Shown here: positions 42,077 to 53,115 of the stretch, one piece after another
How positions within the stretch are numbered: the stretch's first letter is position 1
Layout of the letters: every line of letters begins with the position of its first letter
NCBI GenBank assembly: GCA_024637315.1
Contig: JAGXFH010000086.1
Location: 1 to 64,000 of the forward strand
Direction of reading: 5' to 3'
Source: Brevirhabdus sp.
GTDB lineage: Bacteria; Pseudomonadota; Alphaproteobacteria; Rhodobacterales; Rhodobacteraceae
Length of the DNA stretch: 64,000 nt
Position numbers and translations under genes: made by a program
The notes under the pieces: generated by a model
Database searches by the model: none
The model's input: only the letters and a program-made list of their open reading frames with translations
Told to the model about the DNA's origin: nothing

Positions 42077-42421
42077 TCAGCGCAGCAAGGCGATCGGCGC
42101 ATTCTCGTCCCGGCAGAAATCCAGCGGTGCCTTGTCGACCGCTTCAGTGTGCCACTTGAACTCATAAACCATCTCGCCGGCCTCTTCCTCCGAGGCGACG
42201 ATGAGGCACTGATACAAATGCCGCGTCCCGTCATAAAGATCGACAAGCCCGCGCAAATGCGGCGCATCCTCTGCATCCAGCGCAAACCCTCCTTCCCAGA
42301 AACGCAGCACCGGATAGACCTCGTCATCGGTATGAACGCGCAACCGGCTCTTCTTTTGCAGCGCGCTTTTGCGGGCTATCTCAAGCCCCTCGCGCACTTC
42401 CTTCGGCAAGAAATCCGACAT
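42077..42421 (-). CDS. Hypothetical protein behind a CtrA-type site
   Basis: The 114-residue soluble protein is highly charged and has no signal or recognised domain. Recognisable stretches are LQKKSRLRVHTDDEVYPVLRF and VYEFKWHTEAVDKAPLDF. ATG 42421 is preferred, with GAGGGG 8 bases upstream. The ATG two codons earlier (42427) would put the same sequence too close. I think it is a conserved Rhodobacterales protein of unknown role. It has a TTAA-N7-TTAA site 64-78 bp upstream. Confidence 0.7.
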   Translation of the reverse strand: MSDFLPKEVREGLEIARKSALQKKSRLRVHTDDEVYPVLRFWEGGFALDAEDAPHLRGLVDLYDGTRHLYQCLIVASEEEAGEMVYEFKWHTEAVDKAPLDFCRDENAPIALLR

Positions 42422-42484: not shown

Positions 42485-42499
42485 GTTAAATGACGTTTA
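42485..42499. promoter_or_regulatory. CtrA-type box TTAA-N7-TTAA inside a 19-bp inverted repeat
   Basis: TTAA at 42485-42488 and 42496-42499 are separated by exactly seven bases (ATGACGT). The whole element GGTTAAATGACGTTTAACC is a perfect 7-bp inverted repeat around TGACG. TTAA-N7-TTAA is the classical CtrA recognition sequence of alphaproteobacteria. It lies upstream of the hypothetical gene starting at 42421 and just after cobM. Binding is inferred. Confidence 0.65.
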
Positions 42500-42528
42500 A
42501 CCAGCGGCAAGCAACGGCGGAAAAAAAC

Positions 42529-43299
42529 CTATTTTGTTGCGACTCTTGGGCGCAATACATGCGGAATGGCCGGATTGTAGAGCGCCGAATCACGAAACGC
42601 CTGCCCCTCGCGCAGCGCCGGGCCGACCAGAATCAGGGCGGTGCGCGTGATCTTCTCGGCCCGAACCCTGGCATGGATATCGGCCAAGGTGCCGCGGATC
42701 AGCAACTGGTCGGGCCAGCCGACCCGGTAGGCCACCACCACGGGACAGTCGGGTCCATAATGCGGCGAAAGCTGGCGCTCGATCTCACGCAGATTGCGCA
42801 CCCCCAGATGAATCGCCAGCGTCGCGCCGGTGCGGGCGAAATTGTCCAGGGTTTCGCGTTCGGGCATCGCCGTCGACTTCATCGAGACCCGCGTCAGCAC
42901 GATCGACTGCGCAATCTCCGGAATTGTCAGTTCCTGTCCCAATGCAGCCGCCGCCGCCGCATAGGCGGGAACGCCGGGAATGATCTGATAATCAATCCCG
43001 TCCGCCCGTAGCCGCCTGATTTGCTCTGCAATCGCCCCGTAAAGCGACGGGTCGCCCGAATGAACCCGCGCAACATCCAGACCGCGTGAATGTGCCGCCA
43101 TGATCTCGGCGTGGGTTTCGTCCAGCGTCATCGCGGCGGTATCCAGAACCCGCGCGCCCTTCGGCGCACAGACCACGACCTCGGGCGGCACCAATGAGCC
43201 GGCGTAAAGGCAGACCGGGCATTCGCCGATCACCCGTTCCGCCTTCTTCGTCAAAAGCTCCGGGTCGCCCGGCCCCGCGCCGATGAAATAGACCGTCAT
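42529..43299 (-). CDS. cobM: Precorrin-4 C11-methyltransferase
   Basis: CobM methylates C11 of precorrin-4. The 256-residue SAM enzyme of the tetrapyrrole methylase fold has MTVYFIGAGPGDPELLTKKAERVI (motif A), CLYAGSLVPPEVV, ARVHSGDPSLYGAIAEQI and IPGVPAYAAAAAALG, then VVAYRVGWPDQLLIRGTLAD. It is the last gene of the minus-strand cob operon and overlaps cbiG/cobJ by ATGA. A T7 run follows the stop but no stable hairpin precedes it. Confidence 0.95.
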   Translation of the reverse strand: MTVYFIGAGPGDPELLTKKAERVIGECPVCLYAGSLVPPEVVVCAPKGARVLDTAAMTLDETHAEIMAAHSRGLDVARVHSGDPSLYGAIAEQIRRLRADGIDYQIIPGVPAYAAAAAALGQELTIPEIAQSIVLTRVSMKSTAMPERETLDNFARTGATLAIHLGVRNLREIERQLSPHYGPDCPVVVAYRVGWPDQLLIRGTLADIHARVRAEKITRTALILVGPALREGQAFRDSALYNPAIPHVLRPRVATK

Positions 43300-45206
43300 G
43301 CCCCGTCCTTCATCGTGTTCATGGCGCGGCTGGTTTGCGCCCCTGACGGTTCGTTGAACCGGTTCTCTTCCGGCCCGAACTCCGCGCCGCAGGCATCCGA
43401 CACCCCGGCAAGATCGCCATCGATCTTCCGCGCGTAGCCTCGCGGCGTGTACATCCTTGGTCCCTCGCCCAACATCGCCAGGCGAGTATGGGACGAGCCG
43501 ACCAGAACCACCGTCAGCATATCGACCTCGTCGACATCGAGATCCGCAAGCCGCCGATAGCGGATATGCTCATCGGGCCGCCCCAGCGACGAGGCCAGCA
43601 TGACCGGCGTGTCCTCTGGCCGATGCTGCAGCAGGATCTCCCGCGCCTCGGCCAGCAACGTTCGCCGGCGCATCGAAACAGGATTGTAGAATGCAATCAC
43701 GAAATCCCCCTCCGCCGCCGCACGCAGTCGCTTCAGGATATCCTCTCGCGGGGTCAGAAGATCGCTCAGCGAAATCGCACAGAAATCGTGGCCCAAAGGC
43801 GCGCCCGCCCGCGCCGCTGCCCCTTGCAGTGCCGATACGCCCGGCGAGCAGACGACCTCGACCCGCCGCGCCGCCGCCGAGACGCCCTGCGCCTTCGGCC
43901 CGCGGTCCAGAAGTTCGAAGACCAGCGCCGCCATCGCGTAAATCCCGGCATCGCCAGAGCAGATCAGCGCCACGTTCCGCCCTTCGCCGGCGCGCTCAAG
44001 CGCGTAGCGGCACCGCTCCTCCTCGCCGCCCAACGGGAAGTCAGTGCGTTTCCTGCCGACCGCCAAAGGTCCCAGAAGGTCAATATACAATCCATATCCA
44101 ACCAGTTCCTCGGCTTCTGAGATAAACCGGGACACTTCGGGTGTTCGCCACGCGGCCTGCCCCGGACCGATCCCGACCACCGAAAGCCGCCCCCGTGGGC
44201 GTCCTCGCATTTCGACGATCGGCTCCGAGGCCAGCGCCAGGGCAACCGTCGCATTCGCCGTCTTGCGCTTGGGGATCCAAAGCGTCGCCTCCGGCCCGGC
44301 CCCGGCCAAAGCCGCGCCTTCCGCAACGCCGTGGCAGCCGACCTCGGCAAACACGACGTCCGAGGGTGTCGCCAATCGTCCCGCTTCGGCCTCCAACTCG
44401 GCGGCGTCGAACAACCGCAACGGCAGGTCCAAACCAGTGGCCAGATCCAGAATCGCCGGCTCGTCCGCTTTCAGTTCGATCGTGAACACAGCCTTGACCG
44501 CACCAGCCGCAATCCCGGATTCGGCCATCACCTCGGCCACCAACCCGGCCAATTCCTCGGGCGGACAGTTCCGTGCGCAGCCCACGCCAAGGGCCGCTCT
44601 TTGCGGATGAAACGTCAGCGCCCCGGCAACCGCCGGCCGCATCGTCGCCGCGATCCGTACGCCATCACCCTCGGGCAATCCCACCAGCCACCGGGCCCGT
44701 TCGGCTTCCTCGCCGCCGATCCGGGCTCCGTCGCCCGCCAGAAGCACCGCCATCGCCCCCTTGGCCAGATTCGGCGTGCCCAGAACCCAACCCTCCGGCG
44801 GCTCGTCCAAAGACACGCCCAAAGCGACATCACCTGCCGTCGTCACCGCCGCCACGCCGCCCATCGCCTCGGCCACGACCTTCGCCAGCCGGTTCGCCCC
44901 GCGATGCCCGCCCAGAAGCGGCACTACAACGCCACCATCATCGGAAACCGAAATGACTGGCGGCTCGGTCTGCTTGTCCGCCAGCATCGGCGCGACCGCC
45001 CGGATCAGTATGCCCGAGGCGCAAACCCCGACCACCGGAACCCCGGCGGCGAACAACCCGCGCACATGCTCCAAAGCATCGGGGAAAAACGCATCCGCTC
45101 GCACAATGCGGCCCTCGCGCCCATGAACAAGCGCGCCCAAGGCTGCCGCCACCCGGTGCGCCACATCTTCGCCCGAGCGCGACAGCGCCACCACAACAGG
45201 TTTCAC
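43296..45206 (-). CDS. cobJ: Fused CbiG-type protein and precorrin-3B C17-methyltransferase CobJ
   Basis: The 636-residue protein joins two enzymes. Residues 1 to about 325 are CbiG-like: VPVVGVCASGILIRAVAPML, VVPLLGGHRGANRLAK and the C-terminal LGVGCARNCPPEELAGLV (CobE/CbiG-C). From about residue 338 comes CobJ: LSVVGIGPGQAAWRTPEV, CSGDAGIYAMAALVFELL, VVCSPGVSALQGAAAR and FYNPVSMRRRTLL. CobJ makes precorrin-4. The CbiG part cleaves C20 as acetaldehyde in anaerobic paths, so its role here is of interest. GTG 45206 overlaps the cobI stop (GTGA). Longer upstream frames run into cobI antisense of other frames and are rejected. Confidence 0.9.
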   Translation of the reverse strand: MKPVVVALSRSGEDVAHRVAAALGALVHGREGRIVRADAFFPDALEHVRGLFAAGVPVVGVCASGILIRAVAPMLADKQTEPPVISVSDDGGVVVPLLGGHRGANRLAKVVAEAMGGVAAVTTAGDVALGVSLDEPPEGWVLGTPNLAKGAMAVLLAGDGARIGGEEAERARWLVGLPEGDGVRIAATMRPAVAGALTFHPQRAALGVGCARNCPPEELAGLVAEVMAESGIAAGAVKAVFTIELKADEPAILDLATGLDLPLRLFDAAELEAEAGRLATPSDVVFAEVGCHGVAEGAALAGAGPEATLWIPKRKTANATVALALASEPIVEMRGRPRGRLSVVGIGPGQAAWRTPEVSRFISEAEELVGYGLYIDLLGPLAVGRKRTDFPLGGEEERCRYALERAGEGRNVALICSGDAGIYAMAALVFELLDRGPKAQGVSAAARRVEVVCSPGVSALQGAAARAGAPLGHDFCAISLSDLLTPREDILKRLRAAAEGDFVIAFYNPVSMRRRTLLAEAREILLQHRPEDTPVMLASSLGRPDEHIRYRRLADLDVDEVDMLTVVLVGSSHTRLAMLGEGPRMYTPRGYARKIDGDLAGVSDACGAEFGPEENRFNEPSGAQTSRAMNTMKDGA

Positions 45207-45904
45207 AACCACGGATCGGCCCCCTTCGTCAGCAGGATCATAGAGAAATACGGCGCCCGCTCCGGCGCCTCGGCCAATGCGCAAACGACCTCGCCCGGCA
45301 GGCTCGCGCGTTCCACATAGACCGCGCGACCTGTCAGCCCAAGCCCCTCGATCACCGCACGGATCTTCGGCAGATGCCGCCCGACCTTCAGGATCGCGAC
45401 GCTCTCCGCGCCCTCGATCCGCTCGCGCAACTCCGCTTCCGGCAGCGGCCCCGGCAGCACCGTCAACCGCTCGTTCCGTGCAGCCAGCGGCATCCCCGCC
45501 CTCGCCGCACAAGCCGTGATACTGGTCACACCCGGAACCACCTCGACCTCGAACCGCCCCGACAACCGGGCGTAAAGATACATGAACGAGCCGTAAAAGA
45601 ACGGATCCCCCTCGCACAGACAGACAACATCGTCACCCGCGTCCAGCGCCTCGGCGATCGCCGCAGCGCCCCTGTCGTAAGCCGCCTGCGCCGGTTCCCG
45701 GTCAGTCGTCATCGGCACATCCATGATGATCTCGCGGACGCCCGCCCCGATCACGCCGGCGGCTATCGAGCGCGCAAAACTCGCAGCGCCTTCCAGCGCC
45801 GGATAGGCCACGACCGTCGCCGCGCCGATCAGCCGCGCCGCCTTCAGCGTCATCAATTCCGGATCGCCGGGGCCAAGGCCGATGCCGAAAAGCTTGCCGG
45901 TCAT
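45203..45904 (-). CDS. cobI: Precorrin-2 C20-methyltransferase
   Basis: CobI makes precorrin-3A. The 233-residue SAM enzyme begins MTGKLFGIGLGPGDPELMTLKAARLI, with CLCEGDPFFYGSFMYLYARL and VVPGVTSITACAARAGMPLA. It ends with the PYFSMILLTKG segment seen in CobI/CbiL. The start ATG overlaps the cobL stop by ATGA, and the end overlaps the cbiG/cobJ GTG. Confidence 0.95.
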   Translation of the reverse strand: MTGKLFGIGLGPGDPELMTLKAARLIGAATVVAYPALEGAASFARSIAAGVIGAGVREIIMDVPMTTDREPAQAAYDRGAAAIAEALDAGDDVVCLCEGDPFFYGSFMYLYARLSGRFEVEVVPGVTSITACAARAGMPLAARNERLTVLPGPLPEAELRERIEGAESVAILKVGRHLPKIRAVIEGLGLTGRAVYVERASLPGEVVCALAEAPERAPYFSMILLTKGADPWL

Positions 45905-47100
45905 CGTTTCACAAGGCTCCATTGCGTCACCGGCATCAGCGCCCGCCAGCCGCGATAGGGACCGACCGGCTCGGCCCGGTTCACCGCCAGCTTGACCAAC
46001 TGCCCGCCGTGTTGCGCGTGAAGGTCCATCAGCACCGCCTCGCTTTCCAGCGTCACCGCATTGGCCACCAGCCGTCCCAAGGGCTTGAGCGCGGCGAAAG
46101 CCGCCTCGAACACCTCGTCCGACAGACCGCCACCGATGAACACCGCATCCGGCGCATCCAGCCCGGCCAGCGCCTCCGGCGCCTCGCCCTCGACAATCTC
46201 CAGCTTGGGAGTGCCCAGGGCCAGCGCATTCGCCGCCGCCATCGCCCGGCGATCGGCGCGCGGTTCGATCCCCACCGCACGTGCATTCCGCGCCGCCCGC
46301 ATCCACTCGACCGCGACCGAGCCACAGCCGGTACCGATATCCCACAAAAGCGCCGCCCGCATCGGCATCAGCTTGGCGACCGTCACCGCGCGAACCTCCT
46401 GCTTGGTCATCGTTCCATCATGCTGAAACAGGTCATCCGCCAGCCCCGGCACCCGCGGCATCAGCACCGCATCGGGCGCGGCGACGCAATCGACGGCCAG
46501 GGTGTTGAACGCCGGAACGACATGGTCCCAGCTCTCCGCCAGCCCCTCGAACCGCGCCTCGTTCTTGCCGCCCATCGCCGCCAGCACTGTCATCGGGCTT
46601 CGGCCAAACCCCCGCTCGGTCAGGAACCGCGCGATCTGCGCCGGCGTCTCCGCCCCAGTCGTCAGGATCAACAAGCGCTGATCCGGCTGGATGAACGCAA
46701 TCATTTGTTCCAACGGCCGACCATGCACCGTCAGGGTCTCGACATCGGCCATCGACCAGCCCATCCGGGCCGCCGCCAGTTGGAACGCCGAAATCTGCGG
46801 ATGGTAGATGATCTCTGCCGGCGGTATCGCCCGCCCGATCCGCGCGCCGACCGAGAACCACAGCGGATCCCCGGTCGCCAGCACGACCACGCGCTTGCCC
46901 TTCAGCCCCTGCAAGGTCTCGATCAGGGCGTCGAACGGATGCGGCCAGGCCAGCCGCTCGGCCACGACGCTGTCCGACAGCGCGTGATGCCGGTCGCCGC
47001 CGATGATCACTTCGGCGGCCTCGACCACGGCCCGCGTCGCAGGCGCCAGCCCCTCGAACCCGTCCTCGCCGATGCCGACGATATGCAGCCAGGCGCTCAT
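45901..47100 (-). CDS. cobL: Precorrin-6Y C5,15-methyltransferase (decarboxylating)
   Basis: The 399-residue bifunctional CobL is a fusion of a CbiE-type methylase (residues 1-200) and a CbiT-type decarboxylating methyltransferase (about 210-399). The N half has LHIVGIGEDGFEGLAPATRAV, LATGDPLWFSVGARI, ISAFQLAAARMGWSM. The C half has the motif LLWDIGTGCGSVAVEWMRAA and VFIGGGLSDEVFEAAF. It converts precorrin-6B to precorrin-8. ATGA overlaps on both sides. Confidence 0.96.
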   Translation of the reverse strand: MSAWLHIVGIGEDGFEGLAPATRAVVEAAEVIIGGDRHHALSDSVVAERLAWPHPFDALIETLQGLKGKRVVVLATGDPLWFSVGARIGRAIPPAEIIYHPQISAFQLAAARMGWSMADVETLTVHGRPLEQMIAFIQPDQRLLILTTGAETPAQIARFLTERGFGRSPMTVLAAMGGKNEARFEGLAESWDHVVPAFNTLAVDCVAAPDAVLMPRVPGLADDLFQHDGTMTKQEVRAVTVAKLMPMRAALLWDIGTGCGSVAVEWMRAARNARAVGIEPRADRRAMAAANALALGTPKLEIVEGEAPEALAGLDAPDAVFIGGGLSDEVFEAAFAALKPLGRLVANAVTLESEAVLMDLHAQHGGQLVKLAVNRAEPVGPYRGWRALMPVTQWSLVKR

Positions 47101-47735
47101 TCCGCCTCTCCGGGCAAGCCCGCCGCCAGCGCGTTGACCGCCGCCGAGGCAATCGCCGACCCGCCCCGCCGCCCGCGCAGAACGATGTACGGGCATCCAC
47201 GAGGGTTCGCCGCCAGTTCCGCCTTGCTTTCGGCCGCGCCGACAAACCCGACCGGAAAACCCAGGATCAGCGCCGGTTTCGGCCAGCCCTCGTCCAGCCG
47301 CTCCAGCAGATGAAAAAGCGCTGTCGGCGCGTTGCCGACAGCTACAACCGCACCTTCGATTCGCTCCCGCCACAACTCGACCGCCGCCGCCGAGCGGGTC
47401 GTGCCAAGCGCCGCGGCCCGATCCGGCACCGAGGCGTCATTCAGCGTCACCAGAACCTCGTTGCCAGCCGGCAAGGCCCGGCGGATGATCCCCGAGGCCA
47501 CCATCTCGCAGTCGCAAAGAACCGGCGCGCCTGCTGCCAAGGCAGTCTGTCCGCCCTCGAACGCGGCCTCCGAGAAATCCAGCCGGTCCGCAACCTCGAC
47601 CATACCGCTGGCATGGATCACCCGGATCGCCAGGGCCTGCATACCCGGCCCGAACCGGTCCAGCCGCGCCTCGCGCCGCACAGTGGCGAAACTCTCGCCA
47701 TAGATCGCCGCCGGGTCCTTCAGGTAAGGGCGCAT
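47097..47735 (-). CDS. cobH: Precorrin-8X methylmutase
   Basis: CobH moves a methyl from C11 to C12, yielding hydrogenobyrinate. The 212 residues contain the active-site His in RVIHASGMVEVADRL, PVLCDCEMVASGI and VAVGNAPTALFHLLERL, ending with PYIVLRGRRGGSAIASAAVNALA. It is separated by 64 bp from cbiX upstream and overlaps cobL by 4 bp. Confidence 0.96.
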   Translation of the reverse strand: MRPYLKDPAAIYGESFATVRREARLDRFGPGMQALAIRVIHASGMVEVADRLDFSEAAFEGGQTALAAGAPVLCDCEMVASGIIRRALPAGNEVLVTLNDASVPDRAAALGTTRSAAAVELWRERIEGAVVAVGNAPTALFHLLERLDEGWPKPALILGFPVGFVGAAESKAELAANPRGCPYIVLRGRRGGSAIASAAVNALAAGLPGEAE

Positions 47736-47799
47736 CGCCGCTCCTTCTTCTGTTCCGAAACATTCTCGCCGAAGGCTTGAACCTTCACAGAAAAGTCAA

Positions 47800-48885
47800 T
47801 CACGGCTTTGCCTTGCGCGCACTTTCCGGACCATGCGGATGATGTGCATGTGGATACTCTGCATGGTGATGGTGGTGGTGGGCATGATCATGATCGTCGT
47901 GATGGTGATCATGATGATGGTGATGCTCGGCAGCCAGGCGGCACTCGCCGGTGCAGAACGTATCGCAAAGCGCGCAATCGGCCACATTCGACCCCGGCGC
48001 GCTCGCGCCTTGCCCCTCGACATGGTGATGGTGGCTTTCCTGAACCGCGCCGACCTCGGCTTCGAAGCCCAGGACCTGCACCCGGTACTTGCACATCGCG
48101 CAATTCGGTGGCGGCACCTCGCCGACCTGTTCGGTGATCCGCTCGGCGAAAGTCTCCAGTACCAACGGATGGTCGTTCAGGTACCCGGCCTTGACGAACT
48201 GGATCTTGGGATGCTCTGCCGCGACCTGGTCGGTAAAGCCGTAGATCCGGTCGATCAGGATGCCGGTGAACAGGAAATACGGGAACACGATGACCCGGCT
48301 GTAGCCAAGCCGGGTCACATGCGTCAAACAGGGTTCGACAAGCGGAAAGGTCACACCGGAATAGCCGACCTCGCACCAGCCAAAGCCCATGCCTTCCCAC
48401 AGCATCCGCGCGATCTTGCTGACATTGGCATTCGCATCCGGATCGCTCGCCCCGCGCCCGATCACCACCAGGCAAGTCTCGGACAGCGGCAACGCGCCCA
48501 GCTCGGCATTGGCGCGATCGACAGCCTCCTGGACGCGCGCACCGGCAGCCGCGATCATCTTCGGATCGACACCCAGCTCCCGGCCATAGGAAACCTCGAC
48601 CCCGTTTGCCTTGGCGTAGGTGTTGAGAACCGTCGGGATGTCGTTCTTGGCATGCATCGCGGCGAACAGCATTCCCGGAACGGCGAGGATCCGCTCGCAC
48701 CCCTTGTCACGCAGCCGGTCCAGGCCGTCGCGGATCACCGGGTTGGCGAATTCCAGATAGCCGTAATCCGTCTCCCACGCGTCGGGCAGATAACCCGGCA
48801 GTTTCTGCGCGAGCACCGCGAACTCATCCACCGCTGCCTGAGACCGAGAGCCGTGGCCGCAGATCATCACCCCGATCTTCGACAT
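47800..48885 (-). CDS. cbiX: CbiX-type sirohydrochlorin chelatase with His/Cys-rich tail
   Basis: The 361-residue class II chelatase has two CbiX repeats: MICGHGSRSQAAVDEFAVL with active-site His, VPGMLFAAMHAKNDIP, then VVIGRGASDPDANANVSK and VIVFPYFLFTGILIDRI. C-terminal to the core is NCAMCKYRVQVLGFE (Cys-x-x-Cys), a second cluster ADCALCDTFCTGEC, and a tail of about 45 residues that is half histidine. Family members insert Co or Fe into sirohydrochlorin, and some bind an Fe-S cluster through such cysteines. The tail likely stores or delivers metal. Confidence 0.9.
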   Translation of the reverse strand: MSKIGVMICGHGSRSQAAVDEFAVLAQKLPGYLPDAWETDYGYLEFANPVIRDGLDRLRDKGCERILAVPGMLFAAMHAKNDIPTVLNTYAKANGVEVSYGRELGVDPKMIAAAGARVQEAVDRANAELGALPLSETCLVVIGRGASDPDANANVSKIARMLWEGMGFGWCEVGYSGVTFPLVEPCLTHVTRLGYSRVIVFPYFLFTGILIDRIYGFTDQVAAEHPKIQFVKAGYLNDHPLVLETFAERITEQVGEVPPPNCAMCKYRVQVLGFEAEVGAVQESHHHHVEGQGASAPGSNVADCALCDTFCTGECRLAAEHHHHHDHHHDDHDHAHHHHHHAEYPHAHHPHGPESARKAKP

Positions 48886-48888
48886 GGC

Positions 48889-49104
48889 TCAGGCCTCCTG
48901 CCGGTCTTTCGAACCGGCCCCTTCGGTGTCGGATTTCTTGCCGCGACCCTTCAGCATCCCCCAGACGCCAGCCGCAATGGCCGCGCCGATCGCCGCGCCG
49001 GCGACCCAGTGATTGTGACCGGCCGCATCGACCAGATGGCCGGGATGGGCCTGGGCAGCGCCCGCCGTCGTCAGCGCAACAAGACAGGGAAGGAATTTCA
49101 TCAT
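48889..49104 (-). CDS. Small His-containing membrane protein, first gene of cob operon
   Basis: The 71-residue protein has a signal-type N terminus (MMKFLPCLVALTTAGAAQA), a short His-rich exported stretch (HPGHLVDAAGHNHW), one transmembrane helix (VAGAAIGAAIAAGVWGML) and a charged tail. It resembles a small family that accompanies cobalamin genes in Rhodobacterales (I believe DUF6732). The first-gene position and the His motif suggest cobalt handling, which is inference. AAAGGA precedes the ATG. It lies 3 bp upstream of cbiX. Confidence 0.75.
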   Translation of the reverse strand: MMKFLPCLVALTTAGAAQAHPGHLVDAAGHNHWVAGAAIGAAIAAGVWGMLKGRGKKSDTEGAGSKDRQEA

Positions 49105-49399
49105 ACGTCCTTTCATCCGGGGGCCGGGCGGCGCCAAAGAGGCAAAGGCGTATCCTTCGACGACGCTGCCTGGGATCCCCGTCAGGGTCGATCTTCCGCA
49201 GCCAACCTCTCTGGCCCCGCCGGGGCTTCGTCATTCCCCGCGTATAGGCGGCGCATCCCGGAGGCGCAACGGGATAAGCGGCGCGGCGATCCCCGAAACC
49301 GACGCCCCTGTGCGCTGCCGCAGGGCCGCTGCGCGCTGCCTCCCGTTTTTCCCCGGCTGCTTCGGCACTATGTGAAAGTGCAACAGAAGGGAACGGACC
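49105..49399. other. Leader region between the cob operon and the GST-like gene
   Basis: This region of 295 bp carries no gene I can support. It must hold promoters for the divergent cob operon and the yqjG-like gene. The minus strand lacks the B12 box and the GCCACTG element of a canonical cobalamin riboswitch. It contains GC-rich inverted repeats such as GCCCCGCCGGGGC at 49214-49226. Confidence 0.55.
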
Positions 49400-50380
49400 A
49401 TGGCAATGGGCAAATTGATCGAAGGCAACTGGACGACCGATGAAACCGACCTGCGCAAACCAAGCGGCGCGTTCCGGCGCGCCGAAACCAGTTTTCGCAA
49501 TTGGGTCACACCTGACGGCAGTACCGGCCCCAGCGGATCTGGCGGATTTGCCGCGCAGTCGGGGCGCTACCATCTTTATGTCTCCGCTGCCTGCCCCTGG
49601 GCGCATCGCACGCTGATTTTCCGTCAGATCAAGGGGCTGACCGAACATGTCACCACCTCGGTCGTCCATCCCGACATGCTGGATGACGGCTGGACCTTCG
49701 CCACCGATCGTCCAGGCACCACCGGCGACACGCTTTTCGGCTTCGACTATCTGCGGGAGATCTACCTGAAGGCCGACCCGATCTATACCGGTCGCGTCAC
49801 CGTGCCAGTGCTGTGGGACAAAGAGCGCGGCACCATCGTTTCGAACGAAAGCGCCGAGATCATCCGGATGTTCAACTCTGCCTTCGACGGGGTGACCGGC
49901 AATACCGACGATTACTGGCCAAAGGATCTGCGCGCCGAAATCGAGACCGTGAACGACCGCGTCTACGAGACGGTCAACAACGGCGTCTACCGCGCCGGGT
50001 TCGCGACCACCCAGACCGCCTATGACGAAGCGGTCGAGGCACTTTTCGACAGCCTCGACTGGCTTGAAGTCCTGCTGTCTGATCAACGATACTTGATCGG
50101 CGACAGGCTGACCGAGGCCGACTGGCGGCTTTTCACGACGCTGGCGCGCTTCGACGCCGTCTATCACCTGCATTTCAAATGCAACCGAAGCAGGCTGATC
50201 GACTACCCGAATCTCTGGGCCTACGCCCGAGAACTGTTCCAGATGCCCGGCGTGTCCGAGACGGTGAATTTCGACCACATCGTGCGCCACTACCACTACA
50301 GCCACGACTCGATAAACCCGAACCGCATCATCCCGATCAACCCCGTGATCGACTGGACCGAACCGCACGGACGCGGCTAA
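49400..50380 (+). CDS. yqjG: Glutathionyl-hydroquinone reductase-like (omega-class GST family)
   Basis: The 326-residue protein has an extended GST layout: N-terminal thioredoxin domain with the catalytic Cys in VSAACPWAHRTLIFRQIKGL, VPVLWDKERGTIVSNESAEIIRMFN (GSH site), and an all-helical C-terminal domain (YLIGDRLTEADWRLFTTLARFD). The CPWAHR motif is that of GS-hydroquinone reductases of the Xi class, which reduce glutathionyl-quinones. A second ATG at 49406 is possible. It stands between the two cob operons but probably has a separate role. Confidence 0.88.
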   Translation: MAMGKLIEGNWTTDETDLRKPSGAFRRAETSFRNWVTPDGSTGPSGSGGFAAQSGRYHLYVSAACPWAHRTLIFRQIKGLTEHVTTSVVHPDMLDDGWTFATDRPGTTGDTLFGFDYLREIYLKADPIYTGRVTVPVLWDKERGTIVSNESAEIIRMFNSAFDGVTGNTDDYWPKDLRAEIETVNDRVYETVNNGVYRAGFATTQTAYDEAVEALFDSLDWLEVLLSDQRYLIGDRLTEADWRLFTTLARFDAVYHLHFKCNRSRLIDYPNLWAYARELFQMPGVSETVNFDHIVRHYHYSHDSINPNRIIPINPVIDWTEPHGRG

Positions 50381-50736
50381 TGCGTTCCGTAATGCTCGAC
50401 CAGTGCGGTCAGGTCGTCCGGCGTCATCTGTGACGGCATCATCGCGCAGGCGTTCGGGATATGCTGAAAAAGCGAACCATCCGAGAAGAAGCTGCTGTTG
50501 GTGGTGAAAATGATCTTGGTATCGGGGCAGCGATAGCTTGCGAAATCGGCGATCGCAAAGGCGCTGCCGTCTTCCAGAATCAGGTTCAGAACAATGATGT
50601 CGATCTCTTCGTTCCGAAGAACGTCGACTGCCTCGCTCTGGGAATGGGCCAGCGTGACAGCGCTGCCGCGCCGCTCAAGATGGCGGCGCCAGACCCAGCC
50701 AAGGTCCGGGTTGCTCTCTACAATCAAGACTCGCAT
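50377..50736 (-). CDS. Stand-alone receiver domain protein with degenerate phospho-site
   Basis: The 119-residue single CheY-like receiver has no output domain. The normal acidic pair is E7-S8 (LIVESNPDLG), the phosphoacceptor Asp is replaced by Asn51 (IIVLNLILEDGSAFA), and the usual Lys in the last loop is missing (CAMMPSQMTP). It should therefore not be phosphorylated by the normal route. ATG 50736 is chosen over the one at 50799 because it opens directly on the first beta-strand. A TTAA-N7-TTAA site lies 68-82 bp upstream. Stop overlaps yqjG by 4 bp. Confidence 0.83.
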   Translation of the reverse strand: MRVLIVESNPDLGWVWRRHLERRGSAVTLAHSQSEAVDVLRNEEIDIIVLNLILEDGSAFAIADFASYRCPDTKIIFTTNSSFFSDGSLFQHIPNACAMMPSQMTPDDLTALVEHYGTH

Positions 50737-50803
50737 CCTAACCTCAACTGCCCTTCGGGCCTGTTCGCTAACCATTCCCAAGACAGAAGGTGCTACCAAA
50801 TCG

Positions 50804-50818
50804 TTAACAACAGGTTAA
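50804..50818. promoter_or_regulatory. CtrA-type box between receiver and DUF1636 genes
   Basis: TTAA (50804-50807), seven bases (CAACAGG), TTAA (50815-50818) form a perfect TTAA-N7-TTAA site. Flanks read GTTAAC and GTTAACC. A further TTAA lies at 50836-50839. The site is upstream of both the receiver gene (minus) and the DUF1636-cobC-cbiB operon (plus), so the target is ambiguous. The receiver is a more typical CtrA-linked gene. Confidence 0.7.
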
Positions 50819-50909
50819 CCCGCACGAAAGCTTCATTAACCTCTGCATGCCTGTTGCTTCTGGGTTCCGAATCCGCTCAATGGGTCCGGCGAACGGAATA
50901 AGGCAAGTC

Positions 50910-51281
50910 ATGACCACCTGGATCACCATCTGCGACACCTGCAAGCGCGACGGCTGGAACTCTGGCGAAACCGGAAAGACCGACGGCGAGACCCTGGCCG
51001 CGCTGATCGAGCATGCCGCCGCCGACACCGCTGTGCGCACCCGCCGCACCTCTTGCCTGATGGGCTGCACCCATGGCTGCAACGTTGCCGTGCAGGCAGC
51101 GGGCAAGCTTTGCTATACGATCGGGAATTTTCTGCCCGACCGCAGATCCGCAGAGGCGATCGTGGCCTATGCCGCGCTTCATTCTGAAACCGAATCCGGC
51201 CAGGTGCCCTACCGCCAGTGGCCCGAAGGCGTGAAGGGCCATTTCGTCACCCGCCATCCGCCGCTGCCGCCTGAAGAATGA
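50910..51281 (+). CDS. DUF1636 family predicted metal-binding protein
   Basis: The 123-residue protein has a set of Cys residues in TICDTCKRDG, SCLMGCTHGCNVAVQAAGKLCY, matching DUF1636 (a thioredoxin-like/2Fe-2S ferredoxin-like fold in annotation). Members often lie in cobalamin operons. The start ATG at 50910 follows AAGG. It overlaps cobC by ATGA, so it belongs to the cobC-cbiB operon. A metal or Fe-S role in cobalt chemistry is inference. Confidence 0.85.
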   Translation: MTTWITICDTCKRDGWNSGETGKTDGETLAALIEHAAADTAVRTRRTSCLMGCTHGCNVAVQAAGKLCYTIGNFLPDRRSAEAIVAYAALHSETESGQVPYRQWPEGVKGHFVTRHPPLPPEE

Positions 51282-52210
51282 CCCGCAAGCGCGACCACGG
51301 AGGCGGCCTCGACGCGGCGATCGCGCAATATGGAGGCAGCCGCACCGACTGGCTCGACCTTTCCACCGGCATCAATCCCGTGCCCTATTCGGTGGGCGAG
51401 ATCGCGCCCAATGCCTGGACCGCGCTGCCCGATCAGGGCGCGACGGACCGGCTGATCGAAGCCGCGCGCCAGTTCTGGACCGTGCCCGACGCGGCGCGGA
51501 TCGTGCCGGCACCGGGCGCGTCGGCGCTTATCGCGCGGTTACCGGCCCTTGCCCCGCCCGGCGCCGTCTCGATCCCCGAACCGACCTATAATGAACACGC
51601 CGCCGCCTTTTCGGCGCAGGGCTGGACAATGTCGCAGACTGATCCGGCCGCAGAGGTCATCGTCCATCCCAATAACCCCGATGGCCGGATCTGGACCGCG
51701 GCGGACCTTACCGCTCGGTTCACCATTATCGACGAAAGTTTCGGCGACGTGGCGCCCGAAACTTCGCTCATCCACGTCGCGACCCGCCCCGGCACCCTGA
51801 TCCTGAAGAGCTTTGGCAAGTTCTGGGGCCTCGCCGGCCTGCGCCTGGGCTTTGCGATCGGCGACCCGGCCCTTGTCAGCCGCCTCGCCGATCTGCTTGG
51901 CCCGTGGCCCGTTTCCGGCCCGGCGCTGGACTGCGGCGCCCGTGCGCTGGCAGATCTCGACTGGGCGCAAGCCACCCGCGAACGGCTCGCCGATGACGCC
52001 GCCCGCCTCGACGCGCTGATGGCCCCACATTCAAGCCTCGTCGGCGGCACCACCCTCTTCCGTCTTTACGCGGTGGACGACGCGACAGCATGGCAGGTGC
52101 GCCTTGCCCGACACAAGGTCTGGTCCCGCATCTTCCCCTACTCCGACACCTGGCTTCGCCTCGGCCTGCCCGCACCGGATCGCTGGCCACAACTGGAAGC
52201 AGCCCTGTGA
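51278..52210 (+). CDS. cobC: L-threonine-O-3-phosphate decarboxylase-like CobC/CobD
   Basis: The 310-residue PLP enzyme provides (R)-1-amino-2-propanol phosphate for the lower-loop linker of cobalamin. It has DHGGGLDAAIAQYGG at the N terminus, STGINPVPY, APGASALIARLP, EPTYNEHAAAF, the FTIIDESFGD strand and PLP-Lys in LKSFGKFWGLAGLRLGF. Length is a little shorter than in enterobacterial CobD. ATGA overlap before and GTGA overlap after fix it in an operon with cbiB. Here I use the Pseudomonas-style name cobC. Confidence 0.93.
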   Translation: MTRKRDHGGGLDAAIAQYGGSRTDWLDLSTGINPVPYSVGEIAPNAWTALPDQGATDRLIEAARQFWTVPDAARIVPAPGASALIARLPALAPPGAVSIPEPTYNEHAAAFSAQGWTMSQTDPAAEVIVHPNNPDGRIWTAADLTARFTIIDESFGDVAPETSLIHVATRPGTLILKSFGKFWGLAGLRLGFAIGDPALVSRLADLLGPWPVSGPALDCGARALADLDWAQATRERLADDAARLDALMAPHSSLVGGTTLFRLYAVDDATAWQVRLARHKVWSRIFPYSDTWLRLGLPAPDRWPQLEAAL

Positions 52211-53115
52211 CCCACGCCGCGATGCTGACCCTCGCGCTGATCCTCGACGCGATCTTCGGCGAACCCCGCTGGCTCTGGGACCGCCTGCCGCATCCCGCCA
52301 TCCTGATGGGCCGCGCCATCGACTGGACCGACCGGCGATTCAACAACGGCAAGGATCGCAAGCTGAAAGGTATCGCCGGCATCGCCGCGCTGGCCCTGAT
52401 CGCCGCAATCCTCGGCGCGGTGATTGCCGCTTTCGGCCCGGCCGTCGAAATCCTCGCCGCCGCGATCCTCCTGGCCCAGCGCAGTCTCACCAACCATGTC
52501 GGCGCCGTCGCCGACGCGTTGCGCCTGTCGCTGCCCGCCGGCCGGCAGGCCGTGGCCCAGATCGTCAGCCGCGACACCCGCGACATGGACGAACCCGCCA
52601 TCGCCCGCTCTGCCATTGAAAGCGCTGCCGAAAACCTCTCGGACGGGGTCATAGCGCCGACCTTCTGGTTCCTCCTGCTGGGTCTGCCGGGCCTGATGGT
52701 CTACAAGCTCGTCAACACCGCCGACAGCATGATCGGCTACCGCACCCCACGCCACGAGGCATTCGGCTGGGCCGCCGCCCGGCTCGACGATGCGCTGAAC
52801 TGGATTCCTGCGCGCCTGACCGCCGCGCTGATTGCAGCGGCACACCTGCGCTTCGATATCTGGCCGCAGGTCCGGCGGGACGCCGCGCTGCACAAATCCC
52901 CCAATGCCGGCTGGCCAGAGGCCGCGATGGCCGCAAGTCTCGACATCGCGCTGGCCGGTCCGCGCAGCTATGACGGCGAACGCCGCGACTTCCCGTTCGT
53001 CAACCCGGCTGGCCGCCACGCGCTGACCGCGGATGACATCGACGCCACGACCAACGCCCTCTGGCGGACATGGGCGATAACCCTCGCATTCGCGACCCTT
53101 CTGGCGGTTGCGTGA
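52207..53115 (+). CDS. cbiB: Adenosylcobinamide-phosphate synthase CbiB/CobD
   Basis: The 302-residue membrane protein attaches aminopropanol (or its phosphate) to adenosylcobyric acid. The family motifs are LILDAIFGEPRWLWDRLPHP, AILMGRAIDWTDRRFN, IESAAENLSDGVIAPTFW and NTADSMIGYRTPRHEAFGW. GTG at 52207 overlaps the cobC stop. Met at 52222 is an alternative. Called cobD in Pseudomonas-style names. Confidence 0.95.
   Translation: MTHAAMLTLALILDAIFGEPRWLWDRLPHPAILMGRAIDWTDRRFNNGKDRKLKGIAGIAALALIAAILGAVIAAFGPAVEILAAAILLAQRSLTNHVGAVADALRLSLPAGRQAVAQIVSRDTRDMDEPAIARSAIESAAENLSDGVIAPTFWFLLLGLPGLMVYKLVNTADSMIGYRTPRHEAFGWAAARLDDALNWIPARLTAALIAAAHLRFDIWPQVRRDAALHKSPNAGWPEAAMAASLDIALAGPRSYDGERRDFPFVNPAGRHALTADDIDATTNALWRTWAITLAFATLLAVA

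Follow-up and report, generated by a model that had tools for sequence, protein, structure and literature searches.

The gene at 50377-50736 of the window (the whole 64,000-nucleotide stretch of Brevirhabdus sp. DNA that was analyzed) is proposed to be osp, which would encode a CtrA-activated, phosphorylation-independent inhibitor of CckA acting in a negative feedback loop. We assign this reading a probability of about 0.85. The earlier note on this DNA had seen here a possible CtrA-regulated, phosphorylation-independent adaptor; the link to CtrA and a probable phosphorylation-free action on the CckA/ChpT/CtrA pathway were upheld, but the protein is very probably Osp rather than an unknown adaptor. 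An odd-looking receiver is in this way placed in a described circuit, which is thought to replace DivK/DivL in the control of CckA in the Rhodobacterales. The new part is modest, since the Osp family itself was described in 2022, and consists of the natural Asn51 and the recurrence of Asp51 loss. Two elements of the locus are at the center of the argument:

50377-50736, minus strand: very probable osp orthologue, a stand-alone receiver of 119 amino acids with Asn51, Ser8 and Met100 (ATG at 50736)
50804-50818, no strand assigned: CtrA-type site, exact TTAA-N7-TTAA, 68-82 bp ahead of the ATG of osp

The translation of the open reading frame and the alignment bore out that Asn51 stands in the place of the phosphoacceptor. 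Receivers normally carry Lys at the loop position that matches Met100 of the window protein, and the loss of this Lys was likewise confirmed. The acidic pair had been described as replaced by Glu7-Ser8. Ser8 does replace Asp, but Glu7 is normal, because CtrA has E7-D8 at 30/30 loci (the best-scoring loci of the 55 genomes with a match, out of 61 searched); on this alignment, the loss really concerns position 8. Thr79 is retained. The Pfam receiver score, 29 bits, is just below the cut-off of 30.2, the NCBIfam profiles gave weak receiver matches only, and the CpdR model scored 27.6 bits against a cut-off of 180. The claim that the receiver fold is kept was substantiated by an AlphaFold2 model with five strands (mean pLDDT 86, pTM 0.83) and by comparison with PDB structures, where all 50 matches listed, with query TM values of 0.78-0.89, were receivers or receiver-like proteins; RR468, in structures of its complexes with the kinase HK853, is one of them. 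The helix 4 region is poorly defined in the model, with no helix of normal length assigned and a mean pLDDT of 63 for the block 81-90. DivK and CpdR resemble the window protein in being stand-alone receivers of the CckA/CtrA network, and they work via phosphorylation of a conserved Asp. PMC9430884 states the same for DivK. While DivK and CpdR possess the phosphoacceptor Asp, the acidic pair and the Lys, the window protein has Asn51, Ser8 and Met100 instead.

A closer counterpart is Osp (RSWS8N_09785) of Cereibacter (Rhodobacter) sphaeroides, described in PMC9430884. It is a 120-residue single-domain receiver that has Asp51, lacks the acidic pair and the Lys, and was not seen phosphorylated. 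Osp binds the transmitter domain of CckA and blocks its autophosphorylation, leaving dephosphorylation unchanged, and the osp gene is activated by CtrA. An Osp D51N mutant was functional, D51A is cited there as functional too (Oh et al. 2003), and a strain whose Osp function was lost turned out to carry an H115D substitution. Swimming rings measured 1.12 cm for D51N Osp and 1.64 cm for the wild type, values that were each compared with the osp mutant rather than with one another. According to the same paper, FixT of Sinorhizobium meliloti and Caulobacter is also a single-domain receiver without the acidic residues that inhibits kinase autophosphorylation while unphosphorylated; unlike that of Osp, its target is FixL. 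The window protein resembles C. sphaeroides Osp in length, receiver fold, absence of Asp at position 8, absence of the Lys and presence of His115, and differs from it in having Asn51 where Osp has Asp51.

Taken together, the sequence comparisons indicate that the window protein is very probably the orthologue of C. sphaeroides Osp. The comparison was made through genome G051, picked as the likeliest Cereibacter by its PufX, the second-best match (E 4.5e-33); the genome with the best PufX match, G045, was not among the osp matches listed. We infer that this genome belongs to C. sphaeroides or to a close relative of it. Its osp-like locus, L201, encodes 120 amino acids with Asp51 and His115. An exact TTAA-N7-TTAA ends 53 bases ahead of the ATG (54 bp in the published osp), and the distances to the upstream gene (243 bp) and to the next ATG (111 bp) fit those published for osp; the upstream gene gave a TetR_N match below the cut-off. 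The window protein and the L201 protein are each other's only matches at the thresholds used, with 46% identity (53/116 residues identical, gap-free), and the window genome has a single osp-like gene. The two loci are alike in the upstream CtrA-type site, the linked neighbor genes and this reciprocal match. They differ in the position of the site, 67 bases ahead of the start codon in the window and about 54 in C. sphaeroides, and in the immediate flanking genes.

Osp-like matches were found in 168/295 genomes of the family. A set of 154 non-redundant osp loci was assembled from 150 loci of the match listing (the window's own included) and six of the seven loci from a contig scan, less two duplicates; G051 is not among them. 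Six of the scanned loci came from metagenome-assembled genomes of Rhodobacteraceae or Paracoccaceae, and L037, from an Odoribacteraceae genome, was dropped as a weak match. A protein search of plasmids yielded no match. Distant orthologues are under-represented in these 154 rows because, apart from the loci of the contig scan, the best-scoring listed matches were taken. The near-invariant residues W16, D64, F84, D86, G87, N95, D108 and H115 are all present in the window protein; position 115 is His in 120/154 rows and Tyr in 30/154, and Lys occurs at position 100 in none of the 154. The gene that converges with osp in the window is also part of the conserved neighborhood:

49400-50380, plus strand: GST family gene (Pfam GST domains), convergent with osp, its end overlapping the osp end by 4 bases

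A homologue of this gene lies downstream of osp at 123/154 loci, and a homologue of the gene downstream of osp in L201 lies downstream of osp at 59/154. Since both occur together at 55/154 osp loci, synteny ties the window locus to L201.

The site stated by the earlier note to lie 68-82 bp upstream of the gene was found, exact, at 50804-50818. The window has two exact TTAA-N7-TTAA sequences where shuffles predict 0.02. In the whole genome no enrichment of the pattern was detected (16 sites, every one of them listed for both strands, compared with 22 for a reversed-pattern control), so that one lone site proves little. It is conservation across osp loci that sets this site apart from a chance occurrence. 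In the 200 bp upstream of osp an exact site was present at 67/154 loci (mean 0.58 and maximum 3 in 50 rounds of shuffling), and a site with no more than one mismatch at 127/154 (shuffles: mean 11.8, maximum 18), leaving 27/154 without even a one-mismatch site. In the downstream control stretch, 0/152 loci had the exact site and 1/152 a site within one mismatch. Of 68 exact upstream sites, 58 begin 72 to 95 bp ahead of the start codon. The occurrence of osp with CtrA-like sites across the Rhodobacterales was already published (PMC9430884). For the putative control of the window osp promoter by CtrA, the conserved site is the sole support.

The identity of residue 51 was compared in the 153 readable rows, window included (one of the 154 lacks that position). 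Asp is present in 120, Asn in 24, Ser in 4, Glu in 3 and Gln in 2, which means that Asp51 is absent in 33/153. The Asn orthologues sought were thus found, but the earlier note had named orthologues with a restored Asp as evidence against its reading, and such orthologues are the majority: Asn51 is not a fixed trait of the family. Asp51 in most orthologues does not decide the question of a phosphorylation-free role, because Osp with the engineered D51N change is functional in C. sphaeroides (PMC9430884), and for the same reason Asn51 is compatible with function. Nonetheless, most relatives keep Asp51, which may be of importance to a number of them. The full protein tree requires 23 changes at position 51; after collapsing branches with SH-aLRT below 70, 80, 90 and 95, the lower bounds for Asp51 losses are 21, 17, 6 and 2, respectively. 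With so short a protein and so weak a tree, repeated loss of Asp51 among Osp proteins is likely but not proven. At the 30 best-scoring CtrA loci from this bacterial family, Asp51, Asp8 and Lys101 were retained in 30/30. Loss in 33/153 rows against complete retention in CtrA suggests that Osp, unlike CtrA, can do without the acceptor, and lends evolutionary support to the idea that Osp works unphosphorylated. No mention of natural Asp51 loss was found in the available parts of PMC9430884, PMC11999139 and PMC12471899.

Three other explanations of the locus were weighed. An Osp relative could have kept the fold and the site and now bind another kinase, ChpT or DivL, a change of partner that the identity of only 46% to the L201 protein would allow; the genome has a single osp-like gene, synteny and site are conserved, helix 1 is conserved and a CckA candidate is present, all of which make this very improbable. 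Asn51 could also mark an inactive, drifting copy of osp that no longer controls CckA. Most readable rows retain Asp51 (120/153), and the gene seems to decay in places, as four matches listed elsewhere carry an in-frame stop. In the window, however, the open reading frame is full length and the near-invariant positions are kept; the nearest relative among the matches listed, 81% identical, shares both Asn51 and the exact site; and D51N Osp is functional in C. sphaeroides (PMC9430884). We give decay even less credence than a change of partner. The last explanation concerns the gene on the other side of the site:

50910-51281, plus strand: DUF1636 gene (PF07845, 95 bits), divergent from osp, starting 91 bp beyond the site

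The CtrA-type site could serve this gene rather than osp, given that it lies 91 bp ahead of the DUF1636 start and that, at the 48/154 loci with a divergent DUF1636 homologue upstream of osp, 40 have a site within one mismatch. At the 106 loci where DUF1636 was not found, the site occurs just as often (exact in 52/106, at most one mismatch in 87/106). Service to DUF1636 alone was discarded on account of this equal frequency, and the explanation is the least probable of the three. Control of both osp and the DUF1636 gene by the 50804-50818 site is possible.

The preferred reading, osp as a feedback inhibitor of CckA, requires the rest of the pathway. The window genome contains CtrA (421 bits, cut-off 350), ChpT (87.6 bits, cut-off 22.9) and a CckA candidate with 511.7 bits, the next best protein scoring 88.8; the Brucella CckA model has a cut-off of 1000, reached neither by this candidate nor by any control genome. 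By analogy with C. sphaeroides, the circuit would operate in the window organism as follows. Phosphorylated CtrA would bind 50804-50818 and raise osp transcription, and Osp would dock on the DHp-CA transmitter domain of CckA, stopping the autophosphorylation of the kinase. As a consequence, less phosphate would reach CtrA via ChpT and phosphorylated CtrA would fall, closing a negative feedback loop. Osp would not be switched by phosphorylation, the acceptor position having become Asn in the window lineage. Receivers usually contact their kinases through helix 1, and docking of Osp would use this same face; the conservation of helix 1 residues in the 154 rows (W16 in 152/154, H19 in 133/154 and R22 in 144/154) fits such docking. 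A perfect TTAA-N7-TTAA (G000:C63:290175-290189, L189) lies 50 bp ahead of the first possible start codon of the cckA candidate, and CtrA may for this reason also act on cckA in this genome. Four other stand-alone receivers of the window genome showed no CpdR match at the cut-off (best shown, 44.2 against 180 bits), in a scan that left out a fifth, L186, cut by the contig end.

A further idea, tentative and in our view rather doubtful, is that Osp shed its phosphoacceptor repeatedly in the Rhodobacteraceae and that forms with a natural Asn51 inhibit CckA more tightly and permanently. The swimming ring measured for engineered D51N Osp, smaller than that for the wild type, points this way, within the limit given above for these two values. 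If so, CckA activity in these lineages would depend only on how much Osp is present, which CtrA and protein turnover would determine.

Some additional observations were made on the sampled loci and the window. Four of the osp matches listed (L097, L109, L145 and L154, from genomes G176, G181, G249 and G184) have one in-frame stop each, and these are either decayed copies or sequencing errors. A small gene at 42077-42421 on the minus strand, 8 kb from osp and without a Pfam family, is the homologue (46% identity) of the gene that directly follows osp in L201. The second perfect TTAA-N7-TTAA of the window (42486-42500) lies 64 bp ahead of the likely ATG of this small gene; its role as a conserved companion site was not supported, as 0/59 homologues had an exact site in the up to 200 bp before them and three had one with a single mismatch. 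Between this old neighbor of osp and a point beyond osp, 42529-53115 contains genes whose translations, judged by eye, resemble cobalamin biosynthesis genes, and it looks as if this cobalamin-like cluster came between osp and its old neighbor.
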